This document shows, in pieces, positions 5,808 through 39,960 of a DNA stretch of 64,000 nt. The notes under the pieces are model-generated. The model saw only the letters and a program-made list of their open reading frames with translations, was not told the DNA's origin and did no database searches. The DNA is from Rubripirellula sp. (GTDB lineage Bacteria > Planctomycetota > Planctomycetia > Pirellulales > Pirellulaceae), in assembly GCA_012270065.1 (NCBI GenBank), contig JAAXJB010000078.1, forward strand, positions 1 to 64,000, in the 5' to 3' direction. Positions within the stretch are counted from its first letter, which is position 1; every line of letters begins with the position of its first letter. A program made the translations under genes and the position numbers.

Positions 5808-6416
5808 ATGCTCTCACTGTCCTCAGGACGTATCATCACTGCCTTCTGCGTGGCTCTGGCTCTCCTCACGCTCCAGGGAACGTCTGCATTAGGTCAGACA
5901 CGCGAGGCAAACGCCCCTGCCGACAAACCATCATCGCTGCGGCAAGGTGATTCGGTTGGAGTTTTTTATGTGACGAAAGTAGCGGGTGCCGAGGATGACG
6001 GTGTTCGTCCGGGTGAGCAGTTGTGCTATCGATGCCGTTATGGTTCCAGCCCGATGGTGATGGTGTTTGCACGCCGAACAGGCGGTCGTGTCACGGAGTT
6101 GGTCAAACGCATCGATAAAGCCGTTTTCTCAAATCGGAAACGTCGCCTGAAGGGGCTTGTGACCATGATGGGTGAAAACTCGTCCGCTGTGAAAGCTGCC
6201 GCGGGTCAGGTCGCAGCAGAAGCAGAAGTTGAGCATGTCCCCGTGGTGGTTGCCAAGGAGGTCAAGACCGGCCCGTTGAACTACAAACTACCTGCCGATG
6301 CGGATGTCACGATCGTGGTTGCCAAGGACAGTCAGGTAGTGAAAACACATACGTTCACATCTGAGAAAGTCGACATTGCTGCAGTCATGGACGAGGTGGA
6401 ACGAATCCTCGAATAG
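5808..6416 (+). CDS. exported thioredoxin-fold-like hypothetical protein
   Basis: The 202-residue protein begins with a signal peptide (residues 1-30, ending ALGQ). The mature part contains GEQLCYRCRYG followed by a hydrophobic strand (PMVMVFAR), then helices and a repeated VVVAKxxxV strand pattern. A CxxC followed by a beta strand and helix, with a secreted location, suggests a redox-inactive or specialised thioredoxin-like fold. The CYRCRYG context is one I associate with planctomycete-specific proteins of unknown function. I chose the ATG at 5808 over an upstream TTG at 5784 because it leads straight into the signal sequence. A strong terminator follows. Confidence 0.6.
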   Translation: MLSLSSGRIITAFCVALALLTLQGTSALGQTREANAPADKPSSLRQGDSVGVFYVTKVAGAEDDGVRPGEQLCYRCRYGSSPMVMVFARRTGGRVTELVKRIDKAVFSNRKRRLKGLVTMMGENSSAVKAAAGQVAAEAEVEHVPVVVAKEVKTGPLNYKLPADADVTIVVAKDSQVVKTHTFTSEKVDIAAVMDEVERILE

Positions 6417-30566: not shown

Positions 30567-31863
30567 GTTATCGTTCCGACAAATCAAAGAAGTTCTTGAA
30601 ACCAGCGTTCATGTCGGCTCGGGACATGCAATTTGCCTGAAGAATCTGAGCAACATTTAACATCTGGCAAGAGAGGTAAATTAGAGCAGAAGCACTAAAG
30701 GACAACAACTGCGTATTTAATATAACTGCACGCGAGTCAGTCGGCCAGCTTGTAATGGATCTCGACGATGACGATTCTGCGATCTTGCTGCCCGACCGCC
30801 AGCGGGCGCCCGCTTGATTAACGCAAGCAAGTTGGGGTGATGAAATGAAGACCCCACCAAGCACGTTGTCATGGTTGTTGGGATTCCGCAGAAAGATTAA
30901 TCCACGGACATCCGCAGAACGAGCAATCCACGGGGATCCGCAGAAGCCAGCGAATTTCCACCGGGCTGGTAACGCTGACTGAGTCAGTTTTTGCTGATAC
31001 GACTGGTACACAAACGGCTCACTGCTGACCCTTCTCTGCGGCAGTCCGCTATTGCGATTGATGCACTCCCAGCCACTGGCCGTTGGAATCCCAACTCAAC
31101 TCGAGAACCTTTGCATCAACCCTGGCATCTGCGCATGCCTTGCCGATTCCACCCGCAACATTCACATCCTTGTTTGCCGATTGCGACCTACCTCCCCAAG
31201 AGCTCCCACTCCAATCGAAAACTCGAACCTGTCCGATTCATTTACCGCGGCTGATTGATTGCACCAAACCGGTGGAATTCAACCCCGTGTTGTCAGCTAA
31301 AACAACACCAAGTCCTCGGGTATCTCATCCAACATCGGTGACAGTACTGAAATGACCTCAAGGCGTTTACAAACATTGTGTTGTTCACCTGATCATTTGA
31401 AACAGGTTCCTACGGCGGTGGACGCCATATCCTGCCAGGGATTATTCACTGTGTTGCACCAGTTGCTTCAGGCACGCAGCCCACATCGAAGTCAGCAATC
31501 GGTCGATTTTAATTCAACGCTTCCTCAAGTTGCTCGGAATGCAAATCAGATCTCCGGCTACGTTGCAATCGATGCAACCGTTGTCCGTCTCAAAGATTTC
31601 ACCCTGGTTTGCAATCGCACGGCCACTAGCAACCCCGATCTCACAGAATCCACTCTGAATCACAGCAACCCGTCGTCCACGAATTTTCGTACAAGTTCAG
31701 CTCTGCAAAGCTGTATTACGGTACCCAATTGAAACAGCAAGCTCGGGGCAGTGGCATTCGTAATCGTCAGCCCAAACCAAACCACAGACGGTAATTGCGA
31801 ATTGGTACGTCTGCTTCCAGCCGGTTGAATAATGCCGCTACTCAATCAACCACCACGCATAGT
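30567..31863. other. 1.3-kb gene-free region upstream of the putative zinc operon
   Basis: I see no coding sequence here despite several ORFs of 60-147 codons on both strands. At about 30900-30950 it contains a degenerate direct repeat (AATCCACGG followed by ATCCGCAGAA) present two to three times. The region separates the PQQ genes from the co-directional array that starts at 31963 and could contain a decayed gene or dispersed repeat sequence. Confidence 0.4.
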
Positions 31864-31895
31864 TGCAATTATAATGCAATTGCATATAATTTGCA
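31864..31895. promoter_or_regulatory. Fur/Zur-like palindromic operator
   Basis: A 32-bp inverted repeat has left arm TGCAATTATAATGCAA and right arm TTGCATATAATTTGCA. Twelve of 16 positions pair, and the central 12 bases (ATGCAATTGCAT) form a perfect palindrome. AT-rich palindromes with TGCAA/TTGCA arms are typical binding sites of Fur-superfamily repressors. It ends about 67 bases before the ATG of the COG0523 gene and overlaps the likely promoter. The zinc assignment rests on the genes downstream. Confidence 0.65.
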
Positions 31896-31962
31896 TCTGG
31901 TGCGAATCGCTTCGGCGCTCAAGTTTTCACATTGCTTCGCCCTACTTTCACCCTTTGCTCTT

Positions 31963-32688
31963 ATGGGTTCAACAAACCAGAACGGCCCGCTACCAGTCAC
32001 GATCCTGTCCGGGTTTCTTGGTGCCGGGAAGACCACTTTACTCAATCATGTTCTTGCGAATCGTCAAGGAATGCGAGTTGCCGTGATCGTCAACGACATG
32101 AGTGAGGTCAACATCGTCGCGGCTCTCGTTCGTGACGGAGGAGCAAATCTTTCGAGAACGGAGGAACAATTGGTGGAGATGAGTAACGGATGCATCTGCT
32201 GCACACTCCGCGAGGACTTGTTAATCGAAGTTGCGAAGTTAGCACGCGAAGGGAGATTCGATTATTTATTGATCGAGTCAACAGGCATTAGCGAGCCGAT
32301 GGACGGTGTTCTGCGAAGTAAAGGTCTGATGTGGATCGCATCGCGACATCATTGGGCCTATGACTGGTCCCAGGCTGACTGCTCGATACGCATGAATCCC
32401 GGTGGCTTATGGTGGGCGGCCGCCCCGAAGGACGAATGGCCTGACGACAAGAAGGCGATTGCAGCGATCAACGCAAAAATCACAGGAGCCTACGGTGACC
32501 GCCATCAGGAGTTGGTGTTCATGGGACATGGGATGAATGAGGCACGCATTAGCGAAAGCCTTGATCAGTGCCTGCTGACCGATTCCGAGTACGCTCAAGG
32601 CCCAAAAACATGGGTAGGCTTTGATGATCCGTTTCCGAAAGTCGAGCTCGATCTGGATGAAGATGAATCGTTGGAACTGTGGCAGTGA
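31963..32688 (+). CDS. COG0523 (CobW/ZigA-type) GTPase with internal in-frame deletion
   Basis: This 241-residue protein has the N-terminal half of a COG0523 metallochaperone: Walker [10 protein letters not shown] (17-25), the metal motif GCICC (76-80) and [10 protein letters not shown] (105-113). It then jumps directly to the family's C-terminal sequence [17 protein letters not shown]. Relatives are about 400 residues long, so roughly 150-170 residues are missing, including the stretch that should carry the guanine-specificity motif NKxD. The C-terminal CobW_C part is otherwise intact and in frame ([16 protein letters not shown]). Full-length members deliver zinc to client enzymes under zinc starvation. 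The ATG at 31963 is the first in-frame start after the palindrome. Confidence 0.85.
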
Positions 32689-32839
32689 ATTCCAGATGAT
32701 AAGCGGTCAGTCCTTTTTTGTAATGCGTGGTCAATCAGTCGACGCCGACTAAGCGTCAGCGTTTAAGTTCTTGCCTGACAAGTGCGACCCGCCCAAGTCT
32801 CTGCCAATAGTCCCGAAACACACGACAAGGAACGAAACA

Positions 32840-33310
32840 ATGGGTGCATCATCCTTCTCGGAAAGAAAAACCATCGAACAGGTTGAGGAGGGAACCGAAT
32901 TAGCCCCCAAGTTTGATGAGCAGGGCCTGATTCCTGTCGTCACGACGGACTTCACCTCCGGTGAAGTACTCATGCATGGATACATGAACGCCGAGGCGTT
33001 GACGCAAACGATCAAATTGAGTGAAGCTGTCTACTGGAGCCGCAGTCGCAAGTGTCTTTGGCATAAGGGCGGTACAAGCGGGCTAGTGCAGCGGGTTCGC
33101 GAGATGCGAATTGACGACGATCAGGATTGCATCTGGTTACGTGTGGATGTCGAGGGTGGTGCCAGCTGCCATGTCGGATATCGATCTTGTTTCTACCGAT
33201 CCGTGCCTGTCGGCGACCACGCCAGCCAGACTTTGCAATTCACGGAGCGACAGAAAGTTTTTGATCCGAAAACCGTGTACGGCGATGCTCCTAATCCAAC
33301 TCAACTTTGA
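32840..33310 (+). CDS. hisI: phosphoribosyl-AMP cyclohydrolase-like protein (HisI paralogue)
   Basis: The 156-residue protein matches HisI over [37 protein letters not shown] and [11 protein letters not shown]. HisI hydrolyses phosphoribosyl-AMP in histidine synthesis and uses zinc plus magnesium. The usual DCDxD motif reads DDDQDC here: the Cys inside the motif is replaced by Asp and a Cys appears four residues later. The other two Cys (CHVGYRSC) are kept. The ATG at 32840 follows an AAGGA ribosome-binding site; an upstream TTG at 32771 is less likely. Its position behind a COG0523 gene suggests a zinc-starvation paralogue rather than the main histidine gene. Confidence 0.85.
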
Positions 33311-33429
33311 ATCCCTCATCGGCAATGAACAACATCCTCGACTTCACGACTCAATAGCAGCATGGCGGGCTCGCATCTGTTAACCATCTTGTGTCAGCGA
33401 TGTGAATTCCACTGGACTGAAGAAAACAA

Positions 33430-34611
33430 ATGGAACACCTGTCGCTCTTTCTCAATTCCCTCATCATGGCGATGGCGATGTCGGCGCCGTACCTGATACT
33501 TGGGTACGTTGCGGCGGCGTTGATCAAAGAGTACATCTCGCGCGAATCACTGGCCAAGCATTTGGGTGACGCGGGCATTCGACCGATCATGAATGCGGTT
33601 GGCATTGGGGCGCTACTACCGATCTGCTCTTGCGGAGTCATCCCATTGGGAGTGGGAGTTCAGCGTGCAGGTGCCGCTCGCGGAACATCGCTTGCATTCA
33701 TGACCAGTTCACCGGCAATCTCGCCCGTCTCCATCATCATGGTGGGCATGATGCTTGGGCCAGTGTATCTGGGAACTTATGCCTGTGTCGCACTGCTCGG
33801 ATCGTTCTTGATTGGGCTGGTTGGGAACCGACTGTTACGCGACGAAACCCGACCAGTCACCGACTTTGATTCCATCGTCGATCGTGTCGAAGAAGGAGAC
33901 AGACACCCTGCTCCAGCGCCGGAAGCGGGCTCCCGATTCAAACGGGCGATGCGCTGGGCGTTCTGGGATCTTGGTCCCGAAATCAGCGTCGACCTGCTAA
34001 TCGGCTTATCCGTGGCCGCGTTGGTGCTTGCGTTTCTGCCGATTGAATTGACCGCAGCTTATCTGGGAACTCGCAGCATCTGGACGCTACTGCTCGTGAT
34101 TCTGATTGGTATCCCTGTATACACATGCTCGGTACCGACGATTCCGATCGTTTGGGCGATGTTCATGCGCGGCGCAATGCCTGGCGCGATGCTGGCCTAC
34201 ATGATCGCCGGGCCCGCAACGAACCTAGGGGAACTGAACGCGATCCGCCGAAACATGGGTCTCAGCACGGCAACGTTCTACGCTGGAAGTTTGCTGACGG
34301 TTGCACTGGCAGGGGGACTATTTGCAAACCATGTTGTCTATCGATCGTACGAGTTCAAGGCAAAAATGATCGGCGAAAACGAATTGCAAGTTCAGGATTG
34401 TTGCGTCCCGATGATCTTCGGAAACCGAGTCGATCAGAATAATCTGGGGCAGATCGCGGCCAGCGTACCGACATGGCACTACCCGTTCATTGCCATCCTG
34501 CTGCTGACAATCAGTGTGGGATTGTATCAGCGTTTCATGCAACGCAAACGAAGTGAGGACGACGGTAATGTTGTTGTCACAAACTCTGCACGCGGAGAGA
34601 CCCAAGAATGA
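33430..34611 (+). CDS. COG0701 (DUF318) permease, SO_0444-type metal transporter family
   Basis: The 393-residue membrane protein has about ten predicted TM segments in two blocks, linked by a charged cytoplasmic loop (about residues 140-175). The first block contains PICSCGVIPLGVGVQRAGAARGTSLAFMTSSPAISP, the family's hallmark CSCG motif in a membrane helix. The second block has the related YTCSVPTIPIVWAM. Members include ArsP-like organoarsenical exporters, YraQ/YcgR proteins and proteins annotated as Cu/Zn efflux transporters. In this context it probably moves zinc or a zinc complex, but the direction is unknown. Its stop overlaps the next gene's ATG by 4 bases (ATGA at 34608). Confidence 0.85.
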   Translation: MEHLSLFLNSLIMAMAMSAPYLILGYVAAALIKEYISRESLAKHLGDAGIRPIMNAVGIGALLPICSCGVIPLGVGVQRAGAARGTSLAFMTSSPAISPVSIIMVGMMLGPVYLGTYACVALLGSFLIGLVGNRLLRDETRPVTDFDSIVDRVEEGDRHPAPAPEAGSRFKRAMRWAFWDLGPEISVDLLIGLSVAALVLAFLPIELTAAYLGTRSIWTLLLVILIGIPVYTCSVPTIPIVWAMFMRGAMPGAMLAYMIAGPATNLGELNAIRRNMGLSTATFYAGSLLTVALAGGLFANHVVYRSYEFKAKMIGENELQVQDCCVPMIFGNRVDQNNLGQIAASVPTWHYPFIAILLLTISVGLYQRFMQRKRSEDDGNVVVTNSARGETQE

Positions 34612-35321
34612 AAAAAAGCCAGATAATTCTGACAGGATTTTTAGCGGTCACGATAAGCGTTATCTGGAATGGCGCATTGTTCGTTGATTGGCAGAAGACC
34701 ACCGCTCCATGGAACGTTGCCTGGCGGAGTAGTGCGAACAACAGGGTCAAAACGACTGACTCTCAAGAGCCGGTACTGTGGCAGGCCATCAAAAAAACCG
34801 TTGTGAACGAAAGTCCAGATAGCGGATTCGATCCCCAGTTCGATGATGCCGTCATCGCTCTCAACGGCAAAGTAGTGGAATTGCCAGGTGTAGGATTTCT
34901 GCTGTCGTCGGGACTAGGTGAGACCGAGAAAGGCGAGGAAGAAGTAACTGAGTTTCTGCTGCTGCCCAGTCATGGAGGCGTGGCTTGGTGCTGCGGACTT
35001 TCGCCTATCGCAAATCATGAGTTCAGCGTTCTGGTTGATTGCCACAATGCCCCATTCTCTCCTTCGAGAATCGACCCGAAAAATCCTGCCTTTTTCGTCA
35101 ATGTCAGGGGAACGCTTCGGCTTCAACAGAGTAATACCCTTAACGCGCTCTACACATTGGACGATGCCACGGTTGAGTTCATTGATGTCCAAGACATACT
35201 GCCCCCGAACGTCAAAAACCTTTGCCTCAATCAGCCCTTGAATTCGAACGCTTTTACACGACAAACCAATCCCAACCAACCTCAGCAACCAAATCAGACA
35301 GCACAGCAGGACTCCCCATGA
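34608..35321 (+). CDS. membrane-anchored or exported DUF3299-like protein
   Basis: The 237-residue protein has one N-terminal hydrophobic segment (residues 5-28). It then has an OB-like beta domain: ALNGKVVELPGVGFLL, VTEFLLLPSHGGVAWCC and VNVRGTLRL. This order resembles DUF3299 proteins (N/L-G-K/R-x-V-R-I-P-G-F plus EFLLVP), except that the usual His/Pro-rich stretch after EFLLVP is replaced by GGVAWCCG. A Cys pair at this point could bind metal. The C-terminus is Asn/Gln/Pro-rich. It is translationally coupled to the permease and is probably its periplasmic partner, like TIGR03943-type partners of YcgR permeases. The family assignment is tentative. Confidence 0.6.
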   Translation: MKKSQIILTGFLAVTISVIWNGALFVDWQKTTAPWNVAWRSSANNRVKTTDSQEPVLWQAIKKTVVNESPDSGFDPQFDDAVIALNGKVVELPGVGFLLSSGLGETEKGEEEVTEFLLLPSHGGVAWCCGLSPIANHEFSVLVDCHNAPFSPSRIDPKNPAFFVNVRGTLRLQQSNTLNALYTLDDATVEFIDVQDILPPNVKNLCLNQPLNSNAFTRQTNPNQPQQPNQTAQQDSP

Positions 35322-35563
35322 TCGCTCTTCCAAAACAGCTCATCGAATCAGACGACCAATCGCCGCACCAGACCCTGTTTTTCGGATCCCAAACGATATC
35401 GCACGATTCGCCTGGCAAGGCAGACACCATCCATGAGAACGCTTACATCTCCGAATGGGTTGCTGCGAAGACTGCGCAAGAGCAGCAGGAATTCGCCATG
35501 TTGCAGCGTGCCATGATTCACTGCGGCCTGATCGACAACAACCACAACGACAACCGGAAATAA
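35318..35563 (+). CDS. 81-residue protein of unknown function in zinc-type operon
   Basis: This small protein starts at an ATG that overlaps the previous stop (ATGA, 35318-35321) and ends 9 bp before cysS, so it looks like a genuine translationally coupled gene. It is hydrophilic, with no membrane segment. A C-terminal helix (about residues 47-72, NAYISEWVAAKTAQEQQEFA and on) precedes a His/Asn-rich tail (HNDN) that could bind metal. I do not recognise a family. Confidence 0.6.
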   Translation: MIALPKQLIESDDQSPHQTLFFGSQTISHDSPGKADTIHENAYISEWVAAKTAQEQQEFAMLQRAMIHCGLIDNNHNDNRK

Positions 35564-35572
35564 AGACCTGAA

Positions 35573-37105
35573 ATGGACATTCGATTTTACAACACACTCA
35601 CAAACGAAGTTGAACAATTTGAACCGCTCGAACCTGGGCGGGTCAAAATGTACAGTTGCGGCCCAACTGTATATGACTTCGCACACGTTGGTAACTTCCG
35701 CTCGTTTCTTTTCGCCGACCTGTTACGGCGATTTCTCGAGGCAAGCGGTTTGGAAGTCTCGCATGTGATGAACATCACTGATGTTGGCCACATGACTGAT
35801 GATGTCGCTGCTGATGGTCGCGGCGAAGACAAAATGCAGGTTGCCGCACGGCGACTCAAGGAAGACAAGAAGAGCGGTAAGGTCGAGGACGGTGCTGTAG
35901 CCAATCCAGATGATCCGTACGAAGTGGCGGAATACTTCATGCAAGCCTTTCTGGACGACGGCCGCGACTTGGGACTGAAAGTTGTCAGCGAGTATCCCGA
36001 ACGAGTGCCAAAAGCGACACATTTCATCAGTGAAATGCAGCAAATGATCTCAAAGCTCATAGAACGCGGACATGCGTATGTGGGTAGCGACGGAGTCGTG
36101 TACTACAGCGTTGACTCCTTCCCAAAATATGGCCAACTGAGCGGCAATACGCTCGATGGCTTGCAAGTAGGCGCGGGTGGCCGCATCGACATCAGTAATC
36201 AGAGTGTCAAACGACATCCAGCTGACTTCATGCTTTGGAAGCCTGACCAAAAACATATCATGAAGTGGGATTCACCGTGGGGAGCCGGCTATCCAGGCTG
36301 GCACATCGAATGTTCAACCATGTCGATGCAAGTGCTGGACACGGATGTTCTGGATATTCACACGGGAGGCGAAGACTTAATTTTTCCTCATCATGAATGT
36401 GAAATCGCGCAGTCATGCGGGGCCACCGGTAACGAGCTCTTTTCGCGATTTTGGATGCATGCTCGCTTTCTGCTAGTAGAAGGTGAGAAGATGTCCAAAC
36501 GCAAAGGGAATTTCTTTACTGTCCGTGATGTTCTGTCCGGTAAAGCCACTGGTACACCAGTGCATCCAGCAGTACTCCGGCTTGAACTGATCAAATCGCA
36601 TTACCGGGCACACAGCAATTTCACCACCAAGGGTCTGACCGAATCTGCGAATACCGTTCGTCGATTGACCGAGCTTGGTGAACGCCTACGCGATGCATGT
36701 GGTGATGTTCCGAAAGAGATTGACCACACGGATCATCCCGTCGTAAAGAAGTTTCTCCACGCACTGGCGAACGACTTGAATGTCAGTGAAGCAATCTCAG
36801 TTGTTCACGCCTGGATTTCTTCACCCGGCAAGGATGCTGCAGAAGCCTACGGAGTCTTGTTGGCCTTGGATCAGGTTCTTGCTGTGTGGGAGCTAACAGC
36901 ACGCGATAGCATGACGGATGATCCTGAAAGCGAAATCGCCATCAAGTTGTGTGCACTCATCGATGAAGCAAGACGCACGCGCGACTTTTCGACAGCAGAC
37001 ACTCTTCGACAGGAATTGATTGACCTCGGCTACGAAGTTCGCTCTTCGGCCGATGGAACCCTTGCAAAAAAGACCCTCGCGAGACCACCAAAGGCCATAC
37101 CTTGA
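35573..37105 (+). CDS. cysS: cysteinyl-tRNA synthetase
   Basis: The 510-residue class I synthetase shows [18 protein letters not shown] (zinc Cys29 plus the HIGH-equivalent HVGN), [28 protein letters not shown] and [12 protein letters not shown] (KMSKS). The zinc ligands Cys, Cys, His and Glu that recognise the cysteine thiol are all present. It charges tRNA-Cys. In zinc-starvation operons a second CysRS has been described beside COG0523 genes, and this copy could be that paralogue or the only one. It contains a roughly 30-residue insert ([24 protein letters not shown] region) after the NITDVGH motif, as in several bacterial and eukaryotic-like CysRS. Confidence 0.93.
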
Positions 37106-37153
37106 TCCCATCTCTAGCCAAATACAAATAAAAGAAGAAGGAATACATCTCGT

Positions 37154-37705
37154 ATGCAACCAGCAACACAACCAGCTATCACCGGTTGGGACAATCGAAC
37201 CGTATCGGATTTTTCCAAGGGCGACCTTGACATCCTGATCTTGGAGCGTCCGCTACTTGACGACCTCAGTGCTGCCGTTGAGGCAGGCCGCGTCCATGAG
37301 TTTTTGGCGCCTGTCTGCCGCGACAAAGTCGGCTTTGAGGTTCGCGGTGGGCTAGCCGAGTTGAGGATCAAGTCTCGGTATCTGGCGTCCGACTTGATCG
37401 ATCTGGTGACCGCTTTCCTGGACCAGTTCGACCTTCAACAGGCAAGACTGCGGATCGAGATCACTCGGACGCAATCATGCCCGAAATTCCACAGCGATAA
37501 TGTTCATATGCGACTGGTCACAACGTATCTCGGCCCCACCACAGAGTATCAGTACGCGGGCACGAATGAGATCCACACCGCTCCACTCGGCGGGCTCGTG
37601 TTCCTAAAGGGACACGGTCACCCAAACCACCGGGACACCGTGCATCATCGGTCACCGGAAGTACCCGTCGGTGAAAAACGTCTATGCGTTGCGATAGACT
37701 GCTGA
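37154..37705 (+). CDS. DUF1826 domain protein
   Basis: The 183-residue soluble protein has the DUF1826 hallmarks: CPKFHSDNVHMRLVTTYLGP (about 114-133), GTEYQYAG-type sequence, and GGLVFLKGHGHPN with HHRSP near the end. Conserved Cys and His in the CPKFHSDNV block and C-terminal His residues look suited to metal binding. DUF1826 genes repeatedly neighbour COG0523 genes and Zur sites in proteobacteria; the molecular function is not known to me. An AAGAAGG ribosome-binding site precedes the ATG. It is the last clear gene of the run. Confidence 0.82.
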   Translation: MQPATQPAITGWDNRTVSDFSKGDLDILILERPLLDDLSAAVEAGRVHEFLAPVCRDKVGFEVRGGLAELRIKSRYLASDLIDLVTAFLDQFDLQQARLRIEITRTQSCPKFHSDNVHMRLVTTYLGPTTEYQYAGTNEIHTAPLGGLVFLKGHGHPNHRDTVHHRSPEVPVGEKRLCVAIDC

Positions 37706-37869
37706 GTAAGGATGACGAATTACGTCACCAGCACAATCCTTGCCCGGATAATCGTAAACGGAACCTGATCTTTGCCCCGTTGCTGGCGGACGAAAAGAAG
37801 AGTCAAGTGTTCGAGCCAATCATTGCCGATTTCGTCGCCAATCATCCAAGCCAAGGCTCTCACAAATGA
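37684..37869 (+). CDS. possible small ORF after DUF1826 gene
   Basis: A 61-codon frame overlaps the DUF1826 3' end and ends in an ATGA overlap with another short frame (37866 onward) that runs into the opposite sulfatase gene. The predicted peptide contains RKRNLIFAPLLADEKKSQVFEPIIADFVANHP, which reads like real protein, but it has no ribosome-binding site I can see and no known relative. It may be a remnant. Confidence 0.25.
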   Translation: MRCDRLLSKDDELRHQHNPCPDNRKRNLIFAPLLADEKKSQVFEPIIADFVANHPSQGSHK

Positions 37870-37938
37870 ATCCGTCCAAGATCGCGATTTCGCTGAACCT
37901 CGACGAAAAACAAGCGTTCCCATCCCGGCCAAAAACAG

Positions 37939-39960
37939 CTATTCCTCAATCAGCTCAAGCTGGTGCCAGTAAGCGGCTTCAAAAGACCAACCACTGGCTC
38001 GGTTTTCCAATTCGAGGTCGACCGTCGTTCCTGCGTGCTTGCTCAAATCAAAGCGGAAGTCCTGCCAGCCGGAATCGTCGATGGATTCTTCCAGCACTTG
38101 CTCCCCATCAATTCGAACGATGAGCGTCCAGTTGCCTTGGGCGTGATGATTGACTGCAAACCGAAGGGCACTTTTTTTTCCTGCCGGCACTTTGATGGTA
38201 CGCGATAAGACGCAGGGAACATCCCTGCTTTTCGGGTGTGTCAGCAGCACATTGCGGCGGCCCAGCAGGTTTTTACGCAAACCCGGTTTCATCCCGGGCC
38301 CACCCCAGTTTTTTACCTTCCATCCCGAAGCGAACTTCTCGACATCCGCTGGCAGGTTTGTCCCGGCAGCATTGGCAACCTTGTCGGGCTTGGCAACACG
38401 AGCGCCTGGCGCAGGTTTTGATGTTGCTGTTTTGGGATAGGGCATCTTGGCATCGACTTCTTCGCGCCAGTCATGAAGCATTTTTTTCAGTCGCCGGGCA
38501 AGATCAGGTCGGGATTGCACCAAATCATTACGTTCACCCATATCGTTTTCGAGATCAAATAACTGCAACGTTCCGTTTTCATAGTATTCGAGCAATTTGT
38601 ATCGACCGAACCGGATGGCACCGCCGGGACTTTGGAAACCATGGTTGCTGTAGTGTGGAAAGTGCCAATAGATCGGACCTCGATCGTACTCTTGAGCTTT
38701 CAGCGCCGGGACAAAACTTCGACCATCCACATGCTGGTCTGGCAGTGCCGGCAAATCCAACATTTCAAGCAGTGTTGGATAGAAGTCTGTTCCTGTAACA
38801 ATCGCCTTGGAGGTGGAATTGGCTTTGATCTTCCCGGGCCAATGCACGATCAGGGGCACGCGAATCCCACCTTCATAATTCCAACCTTTGGCACCACGGA
38901 GTGGCAGATTGGAGCTTGCGAAACGTGTATTCAATATTTCCCGTGAATGATTGATTCCACGATACTGGTTAGAAGCTGCCATGCCTCCATTGTCAGCAGT
39001 GAAGATAATGATTGTGTTCTCTTCCAGTCCGAGTTCCTTGAGTTTTTGCCGAATGCGGCCAAGGCTCTCATCAGTCGCTTCCACCATGCCTGCGAATTCG
39101 ACGTTGTCCTGTTTCTGCTTGACCCACCAGACACGCTCCTGCTGGTGAACATCACCAGCATCATTTTCTTCAAGGGCTTCTAGTTCTTCCTTTGACAGAG
39201 CAGGGCCGTCAGGATTGGTTTCCAGTATGTAATCAGTACCGCTTTGTGGCGGCATTGCCGCCAGTTTTTTCTGATACTTGTCAACAAGATCCTTTCTTCC
39301 CTGGATGGGGTCGTGAACCGAGAAATGCTCCAGGTGCACAAAGAACGGTTTGTCCTGGTTGCGTTCAATGAAATCGATCGCTGCGTCAGTCAATTTGTCG
39401 GTGTAATAATCTCCCGGCCTGGAGGCGAGCGTTTTCTCGTAAACAGGCGAGAACGGATGGTAATAGGAACGTACCCATCCCGTGATCGCCTCGTCAAATC
39501 CATAGGTAGTGGGATCACGATTCAGGTGTGCCTTGCCGTAATTGGCAGTGGCATAACCTTGCTCTCGAAGTGTTTCAGCCAGAGTCTGCTCTTCATCTGG
39601 CAGAGCAGTGAGTTTTTCGGCGTGATGCAATGGCTCATAGGCCCGTTCCGGACGGCCACCCAGCCACTCCGTCAAATTTGTACGGGCTGGATATTTCCCG
39701 GTCAGAATACTTGCCCGGCTCGGTGAACAGACATGACAGGTGGAGTACGCGTTTTCAAATAGGACTCCCTCTTTCGCCAAAGCATCAATGCACGGCGTTT
39801 CGTAGAAGGTGCTGCCATAACAGGCGACATCCCGCTGACCCAAATCATCAACAAGAAAGAAAATGACATTCGGCCGTTGCTTGGCATGCACGTCGCTTGC
39901 ACCCTGCGCAAACAGCACGGAAACCAGAACAAGAATGATCATTCGGTTATTGTTATTCAT
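37939..39960 (-). CDS. secreted arylsulfatase-family sulfatase
   Basis: The 673-residue protein has a signal peptide (MIILVLVSVLFAQG core, cleavage near VHAK) and an N-terminal sulfatase domain: RPNVIFFLVDDLGQRDVACYG, C78-S-P-S-R82 (formylglycine site) and TADNGGM. The signature is the classical C-x-P-x-R. The last 130 residues form a separate beta domain. It starts in an ATGA overlap with the upstream sulfatase, so the two are translationally coupled. It is a probable exo- or endo-sulfatase for sulfated polysaccharide. Confidence 0.9.
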   Translation of the reverse strand: MNNNNRMIILVLVSVLFAQGASDVHAKQRPNVIFFLVDDLGQRDVACYGSTFYETPCIDALAKEGVLFENAYSTCHVCSPSRASILTGKYPARTNLTEWLGGRPERAYEPLHHAEKLTALPDEEQTLAETLREQGYATANYGKAHLNRDPTTYGFDEAITGWVRSYYHPFSPVYEKTLASRPGDYYTDKLTDAAIDFIERNQDKPFFVHLEHFSVHDPIQGRKDLVDKYQKKLAAMPPQSGTDYILETNPDGPALSKEELEALEENDAGDVHQQERVWWVKQKQDNVEFAGMVEATDESLGRIRQKLKELGLEENTIIIFTADNGGMAASNQYRGINHSREILNTRFASSNLPLRGAKGWNYEGGIRVPLIVHWPGKIKANSTSKAIVTGTDFYPTLLEMLDLPALPDQHVDGRSFVPALKAQEYDRGPIYWHFPHYSNHGFQSPGGAIRFGRYKLLEYYENGTLQLFDLENDMGERNDLVQSRPDLARRLKKMLHDWREEVDAKMPYPKTATSKPAPGARVAKPDKVANAAGTNLPADVEKFASGWKVKNWGGPGMKPGLRKNLLGRRNVLLTHPKSRDVPCVLSRTIKVPAGKKSALRFAVNHHAQGNWTLIVRIDGEQVLEESIDDSGWQDFRFDLSKHAGTTVDLELENRASGWSFEAAYWHQLELIEE

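Follow-up and report, generated by a model that had tools for sequence, protein, structure and literature searches.

A candidate zinc-starvation operon with tandem operator boxes and an internally deleted zigA gene in Rubripirellula

Does a run of seven genes in a planctomycete genome constitute an operon that answers zinc starvation? The question is raised by a locus of Rubripirellula sp., which was analysed here within a window of 64,000 nt from contig JAAXJB010000078.1; the other contigs of the same genome (G000) are referred to by C-numbers. A preliminary description had read the locus as seven co-directional genes behind an operator of the Fur type. When ORF coordinates and gaps were recomputed, all seven genes were recovered in the reported order, together with the two 4-base overlaps; the intergenic gaps are 151, 119, -4, -4, 9, and 48 bp (Table 1), and the genes would be read as a single transcript. 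The last of them encodes a member of the DUF1826 family (PF08856), a protein that has no known task.

Table 1. Positions in the window of the operon's genes, promoter, and candidate operator boxes.
Feature	Position	Strand	Basis
Sigma-70-like promoter TTGCAA-16-TATAAT, overlapped by both boxes	31863..31890	+	10/12 consensus positions
Candidate Zur box 1, TGCAATTATAATGCA	31864..31878	.	2 mismatches to consensus
Candidate Zur box 2, TGCATATAATTTGCA	31881..31895	.	3 mismatches; starts 17 bp after box 1
zigA-like COG0523 gene, 241 aa, in-frame internal deletion	31963..32688	+	CobW family match; ZigA NF038288 327.8 bits
Deletion junction, one copy of 9-bp direct repeat	32293..32301	+	undeleted sister gene: two copies, 537 bp apart
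hisI, variant type	32840..33310	+	PRA-CH family; IDDDQDC replaces canonical DCDxD
COG0701 / ArsP_1 permease gene	33430..34611	+	profile match
237-aa protein gene, permease partner, weakly DUF3299-like	34608..35321	+	one N-terminal hydrophobic segment
81-aa ORF, fast evolving	35318..35563	+	L083 comparison; no family score above cut-off
Second cysteinyl-tRNA synthetase gene (cysS)	35573..37105	+	CysRS profile; aligned metal ligands kept
DUF1826 protein gene	37154..37705	+	83.9 bits vs cut-off 22

The palindrome reported previously was confirmed, but it is not single: two boxes lie in tandem over the promoter, itself the sole plus-strand match within 31700-38100, a region whose 2 matches fall below the shuffle mean of 4.1. 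The box consensus, TGCAATTNAATTGCA, was derived from the operon promoters of two relatives, L083 and L084, and is unlike any Zur operator known to us. Within the 263 bp that precede gene 1, three overlapping sites with 3 or fewer mismatches were found, compared with 0.013 expected from base shuffles. Across the whole 64 kb, 6 sites at this stringency represented no excess over shuffles (mean 4.8), so that what argues for an operator is the position of the boxes, their tandem spacing, and their conservation rather than the match alone. Conservation was examined upstream of zigA genes at 29 loci, of which 26 were used (L146, L148, and L154 were removed because their Walker motif was not matched by the pattern used), yielding 27 upstream regions with the window. 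The box was present at 2 or fewer mismatches in 10 of the 27, the window counted (shuffle mean, 0.03), and tandem boxes 17 bp apart occurred in 7 of the 27, with 0 at a spacing of 16 or 18 and a shuffle mean of 0.0. The operon of one relative, L085, lacks the box. No planctomycete Zur box was seen in titles among the matches listed in literature searches.

A related box also stands before other zinc-type genes of this genome, as the preliminary reading would predict. On contig C114, a full-length zigA follows a 156-aa ORF, and an exact box stands 92 bp ahead of that ORF; on C88, TGCAACTGAGTTGCA directly precedes a ZIP transporter ORF. The ORF adjoining this ZIP gene was considered as a Fur and rejected; it is ArsR/SmtB-like. 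For the ABC-3 transporter loci the sharing is weaker, as those on C33 and C4 lack a box at 3 or fewer mismatches and none lies near the one on C73. Among 396 genomes of the order, the exact box was found at 40 sites in 34 genomes and the reversed pattern at 1, although the latter, being unequal in CpG content, is not a matched control. A gene for ZigA, Fur, ZIP, ZnuB, or the flavoprotein of contig C71 was found at 6 of 30 fetched exact-box loci, compared with 0 of 60 control loci; at the remaining 24, none of seven zinc query genes was present. In genome G628 the box lies between Fur and ZIP genes, and in G579 it precedes a Fur-family gene, twice. The order box - DksA-like - hisI - DUF1826 occurs in both G526 and G579; at L224 and L227 the box is followed by a DksA-like gene and then by hisI of the same type and DUF1826, with a Fur gene nearby.

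A further expectation was that hisI and cysS would be duplicates of zinc-dependent housekeeping genes. Two copies of each are indeed present in the genome, the second hisI on C53 and the second cysS on C42. The window HisI scored 101.1 against PF01502 (cut-off, 27) and 152.4 against NF000768 (cut-off, 126). When it was aligned with PDB 1zps, two of the three Cys, which we take to be zinc ligands, were kept and one was replaced by Asp. This Asp was found at 20 of 20 fetched loci with the same HisI type; the protein belongs to a clade having Asp where canonical HisI has a ligand Cys. Given this lineage, the zinc-free status of spare enzymes can now be asked of one defined protein. The window CysRS scored 375.1 against TIGR00435 (cut-off, 340), and Cys29, Cys247, His273, and Glu277, presumably its metal ligands, were invariant (6/6). 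When the window was compared with L083, dN/dS for hisI, cysS, and the permease gene was 0.06 to 0.09; between the window and L086, hisI differences were mostly silent (dN/dS, 0.06). One dN/dS value omits the single codon pair containing the stop.

The first gene of the operon has lost its middle. With the undeleted sister gene as reference, 537 bp are missing in frame from its interior, and the COG0523 protein is 241 aa long because of this missing stretch. The first ~104 residues and the C-terminal part of its product match NF038288, and the NKxD motif of the sister gene went with the middle. The score falls well below the equivalog cut-off of 600, so that we class the gene as a truncated relative of zigA; the intact paralog on C71 scores 607. 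Judged from these sequences, the product is probably not a working GTPase, and three full-length zigA paralogs elsewhere in the genome could stand in for it. Two sister genomes carry other deletions within the same operon, and most of the cluster is gone: in G005 (L086), zigA is interrupted by an in-frame stop, the greater part of the operon is missing, and box 2 is damaged, and in G006, an in-frame fusion joins zigA to the end of DUF1826. Moreover, a COG0523 remnant lies upstream of the window operon on the opposite strand. Three sister genomes, the present one included, thus carry three different deletions and illustrate the way in which an operon of this kind disappears.

These losses raise two alternatives. 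The operon of this genome might be a decaying relic that retains little function, its box and reading frames simply undecayed so far, as the truncated zigA, the stop and fusion in G005 and G006, and the upstream remnant would suggest. Yet the deletion is in frame, the six remaining genes have open frames, hisI has diverged from L086 mostly silently, and the tandem spacing is intact; such features would be expected from recent deletions and from continued use alike. We regard a relic as rather unlikely, without placing it among the least probable readings. Alternatively, the deletions could be assembly errors and the real gene whole, given that these are draft genomes, analysed as assemblies, and that L086 is recorded as a MAG. 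Against this stand three different junctions in three genomes; the repeats, of 9 and 7 bp at the two clearest ones, are shorter than would normally mislead a k-mer assembler. We consider such an artefact very improbable.

The operon could also answer a Fur-family regulator of iron or manganese, its zinc character stemming from gene names. All five PDB matches of the Fur-family protein encoded on C71 are named Fur and none Zur, the motif by itself names no metal, and the box is absent near the ABC-3 loci. The neighbours that share the box, in contrast, are ZIP, ZigA, DksA-like, and zinc-enzyme paralog genes. In L083, the end of znuA is followed by znuC-znuB - zinc-ribbon-like - hisI - SaoD/DsrE - permease - DUF3299-like partner - 81 aa - cysS, with HisI, permease, partner, 81-aa, and CysRS genes of the window's kind, and in G540 a cysS of the same type is divergent from znuA-znuC-znuB. 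Control by another metal thus appears improbable. Taken together, the second hisI and cysS, the shared box, and the znuCB link in L083 make it very likely that the genes form a zinc-starvation operon controlled by a Fur-family repressor, most likely Zur and probably the one encoded beside the full-length zigA on C71. The preliminary reading of the operon is thus supported, but the deleted first gene, the double operator, and the variant HisI had escaped it. With ample zinc, the repressor would occupy the two promoter-overlapping boxes; as zinc runs short, it would dissociate and allow the genes to be read. The variant HisI and the spare CysRS, the latter with its aligned metal ligands kept, may then keep their zinc-dependent steps running. 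A deletion between the short direct repeats removed the middle of the leading zigA.

The permease and the two small genes behind it are harder to place. The permease belongs to COG0701 / ArsP_1 (PF03773; 131.2 against 32.3). Its best-scoring named families are SO_0444 Cu/Zn efflux (NF033936; 199.7 bits) and SaoE (186.2 bits), both below their cut-offs of 300 (equivalog) and 325. The gene for the 237-aa partner is present as described, but its DUF3299 label is weak: one of four relatives matched at E 0.015, and the window protein matched no family, DUF3299 (PF11736) included, so that a firm DUF3299 identity was not adopted. A structural model of this protein (mean pLDDT, 36.7) was unusable, and no fold is claimed. 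The 81-residue ORF reported earlier does exist, but as a gene it is less certain than any other in the operon. Of the four close-relative loci L083-L086, L083 alone was found to contain it, although L084 shows a faint match (E 0.006). Relative to L083, its dN/dS was about 0.7 (0.41/0.59). Literature searches on SaoE and SaoD yielded unrelated papers, and those on COG0701 with DUF1980, COG3689, and DUF318 returned nothing useful among the matches listed. The permease and the membrane-anchored DUF3299-like protein may act at the membrane on zinc or a related metal, which makes the pair a candidate zinc-starvation transporter. We tentatively propose, as a possibility we hold with considerable doubt, that together (perhaps with the 81-aa protein) they form a new module for zinc acquisition or periplasmic zinc handling under Zur, opposite to the export by named COG0701 members and travelling with the HisI lineage that lacks one ligand Cys, apparently the sole HisI in some families of the order.

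Similar gene sets have been described elsewhere. In clusters drawn by Haas et al. 2009 (PMC2770081) for gamma- and beta-proteobacteria, COG0523 genes accompany HisI, CysRS, and DksA paralogs and DUF1826 under predicted Zur control; COG0523, HisI, CysRS, and DUF1826 are common to those clusters and the window operon. The window HisI differs in having Asp at one ligand position, and its lineage runs against the published statement that Zur-linked HisI keeps its ligands. The window operon also contains the COG0701 permease and its DUF3299-like partner, whereas 'COG0701' has 0 occurrences in the text of Haas et al. In Vibrio, according to PMC9817125, the DUF3299 protein ZrgE is encoded beside a transporter in ZrgABCDE, a part of the Zur regulon strongly induced without zinc. 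The likeness would be a DUF3299-type protein, weakly matched here, adjoining a transporter; the difference is that the transporter is an ABC transporter in Vibrio and a COG0701 permease here. Compared with ZigA (NF038288), the window copy lacks the middle, NKxD included, and the C71 paralog is intact. SO_0444 and SaoE resemble the window permease most among named families, and L083 has a SaoD/DsrE gene too, but a place in a zinc-starvation operon is unexpected for an exporter. Under the Zur reading, the idea of a zinc-sparing regulon would extend to Planctomycetota, with a concrete candidate operator of tandem TGCAATTNAATTGCA boxes 17 bp apart.

Seven co-directional genes occupy positions 31963-37705 of the window, as the preliminary description had held, with short gaps and two 4-bp overlaps (intergenic distances of 151, 119, -4, -4, 9, and 48 bp). 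They encode, in order, a ZigA-like COG0523 protein, HisI, a COG0701 permease, an unnamed 237-aa protein (here, the partner), an 81-aa ORF, CysRS, and DUF1826. All named relatives of this locus were planctomycete MAGs; the nearest was L086 (G005:C13; 'Planctomycetaceae bacterium isolate Plancto7'), whose HisI is 97% identical to that of the window. A Fur-type palindrome was indeed present before the first gene, but as two boxes rather than the one described earlier. Both overlie the sole plus-strand sigma-70-like promoter detected in 31700-38100, a region in which such promoter matches were not in excess as such.

Candidate operator boxes upstream of the operon
Feature	Position	Location	Source
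Candidate box 1	31864-31878	before first gene	consensus scan
Candidate box 2	31881-31895	before first gene	consensus scan

The consensus, TGCAATTNAATTGCA, was derived from the operon promoters of two relatives' loci, L083 and L084, and matches both exactly. Among the matches listed for their genomes (6.3 and 7.2 Mb), ranked by mismatches, the operon sites were the only exact ones. The consensus was tested on the upstream regions of zigA genes in relatives (29 loci, 26 with a usable start, which with the window gave 27). A site with ≤2 mismatches was found in 10 of the 27, window included, whereas base shuffles averaged 0.03; the site was exact in five relatives. Moreover, two sites (≤4 mismatches each) lay exactly 17 bp apart in 7 of the 27 upstreams and in none of the shuffles; spacings of 16 or 18 bp occurred in 0 of 27.

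The preliminary description had also called for related palindromes at other zinc genes and for second copies of hisI and cysS in the same genome. The genome's sole exact box (C114:10857) lies 92 bp ahead of a 156-aa ORF followed by zigA, and TGCAACTGAGTTGCA was found 33 bp ahead of a ZIP ORF on C88; a second hisI is present on C53 and a second cysS on C42. The zigA beside the Fur gene on C71 has at best a 3-mismatch site. No box with ≤3 mismatches was found at the ABC-3 loci of C33 and C4, which counts against a textbook znu regulon in this genome. Taken together, the boxes at zinc-type genes and the second hisI and cysS indicate that this is probably a Zur-type zinc-starvation operon, as first proposed. 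The 156-aa protein (L041:8296-8766, minus strand; G000:C114), located between the exact box and a full-length zigA, had no match in Pfam or NCBIfam; a gene in a similar position ahead of zigA was also seen in G004:C472.

Parts of the operon recur in relatives. L083 contains the end of znuA, znuC, znuB, a 97-aa zinc-ribbon (FmdB) relative, an exact box, hisI, SaoD/DsrE, permease, partner, 81-aa ORF, and cysS. Its FmdB relative (L083:1999-2289) has no Cys and falls under the Pfam family cut-off; another FmdB-type paralog in a zinc cluster (L224:6473-6670) is likewise under the cut-off, with no Cys in the 45 residues examined. L084 has box, permease, partner, and cysS; no box at ≤3 mismatches was found in L085, which holds hisI, permease, and partner. 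In G526 and G579, a box is followed by a DksA-like gene (two of four finger Cys kept), hisI, and DUF1826 (identities of 66 and 68%), with a Fur gene close by. In G540, an operon-type cysS is divergent from znuA, znuC, and znuB, and in G326 the neighbour of the permease is related to the 237-aa protein (34% across 111 residues). The permease is rare, being found in just 4 of the order's 396 genomes, own included (E ≤1e-45).

Across the order, the exact box was found at 40 sites in 34 of 396 genomes, and the reversed pattern at 1. ZigA, Fur, ZIP, ZnuB, or C71-flavoprotein homologues were present at 6 of 30 fetched exact-box loci versus none of 60 loci retrieved for other purposes. The other 24 had none of these homologues; therefore, many exact sites may be chance occurrences or unrecognised targets. 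Three further exact boxes, near position 1501 of L183, L184, and L185 (from the related genomes G497, G160, and G378), precede His-rich proteins, possibly zinc-binding exported regulon members; that of L184 weakly matched DUF2946. Related-looking 339-aa proteins ('...AQH.DIF.AS..DG') were also seen near an exact box at 1501 in G526 (L176:1558-2574; no match in Pfam or NCBIfam) and a two-mismatch box at 6407 in G579 (L228:6503-7522).

When compared with PDB 1zps, the window HisI has Asp in place of the Cys of the canonical DCDGD, which we take to be a zinc ligand. DDDQD was found in 20/20 fetched loci of this variant type and DCDxD in 5/5 canonical ones. In a 23-row tree, whose canonical rows carry long branches, the operon HisIs (window, G005, L083, L085, G526, and G579) formed one clade (support 95/94) nested inside the DDDQD clade (100/100). 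The variant occurs in 82/396 genomes (two matches partial) and is the sole PRA-CH match in G029, G031, and G035; therefore, it probably works alone. Among 12 genomes searched for CysRS, both types were present in this genome (G000), G790, and G791, and only the operon type in G029, G540, and G605; in the remaining 6, the single strong match was taken as canonical from a split profile pattern, not an alignment.

The operon appears to be decaying in this lineage. Relative to its sister in L086, the window zigA is missing a 537-bp stretch flanked by a pair of 9-bp repeats; this in-frame deletion removes the NKxD motif, and the product scores 327.8 (ZigA cut-off, 600). L086 has a stop inside zigA and a damaged second box, and its deletion, associated with a shared 7-bp repeat, starts at permease residue 65 and runs into DUF1826. 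In G006:C92 (L159:9434-10498, minus strand), deletion of the intervening genes has joined the zigA GTPase part in frame to the last ~53 residues of DUF1826. These deletions could be draft-assembly errors. If they are genuine losses, they look recent, given dN/dS values (NG86, window versus L086) of 0.06 in hisI and from 0.11 to 0.18 in the zigA segments. Upstream of and divergent from the operon, a degenerate COG0523 gene fragment containing two stops (window 31493-31714, minus strand) was also detectable in both sister loci, L086 and L159.

The role of the permease module is one that we infer. ZrgE, a DUF3299 protein, belongs to the Zur-controlled Zrg transporter of Vibrio (PMC9817125), which offers a parallel to the module rather than proof. 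In Haas et al. (PMC2770081), Zur-linked HisI and CysRS paralogs are said to retain their zinc residues; the operon CysRS likewise keeps them, whereas the operon HisI does not keep them all. This kind of operon is already known; what appears to be new, as far as the literature was searched in partial texts, is its operator together with the variant HisI, the permease module, and the decay seen here.
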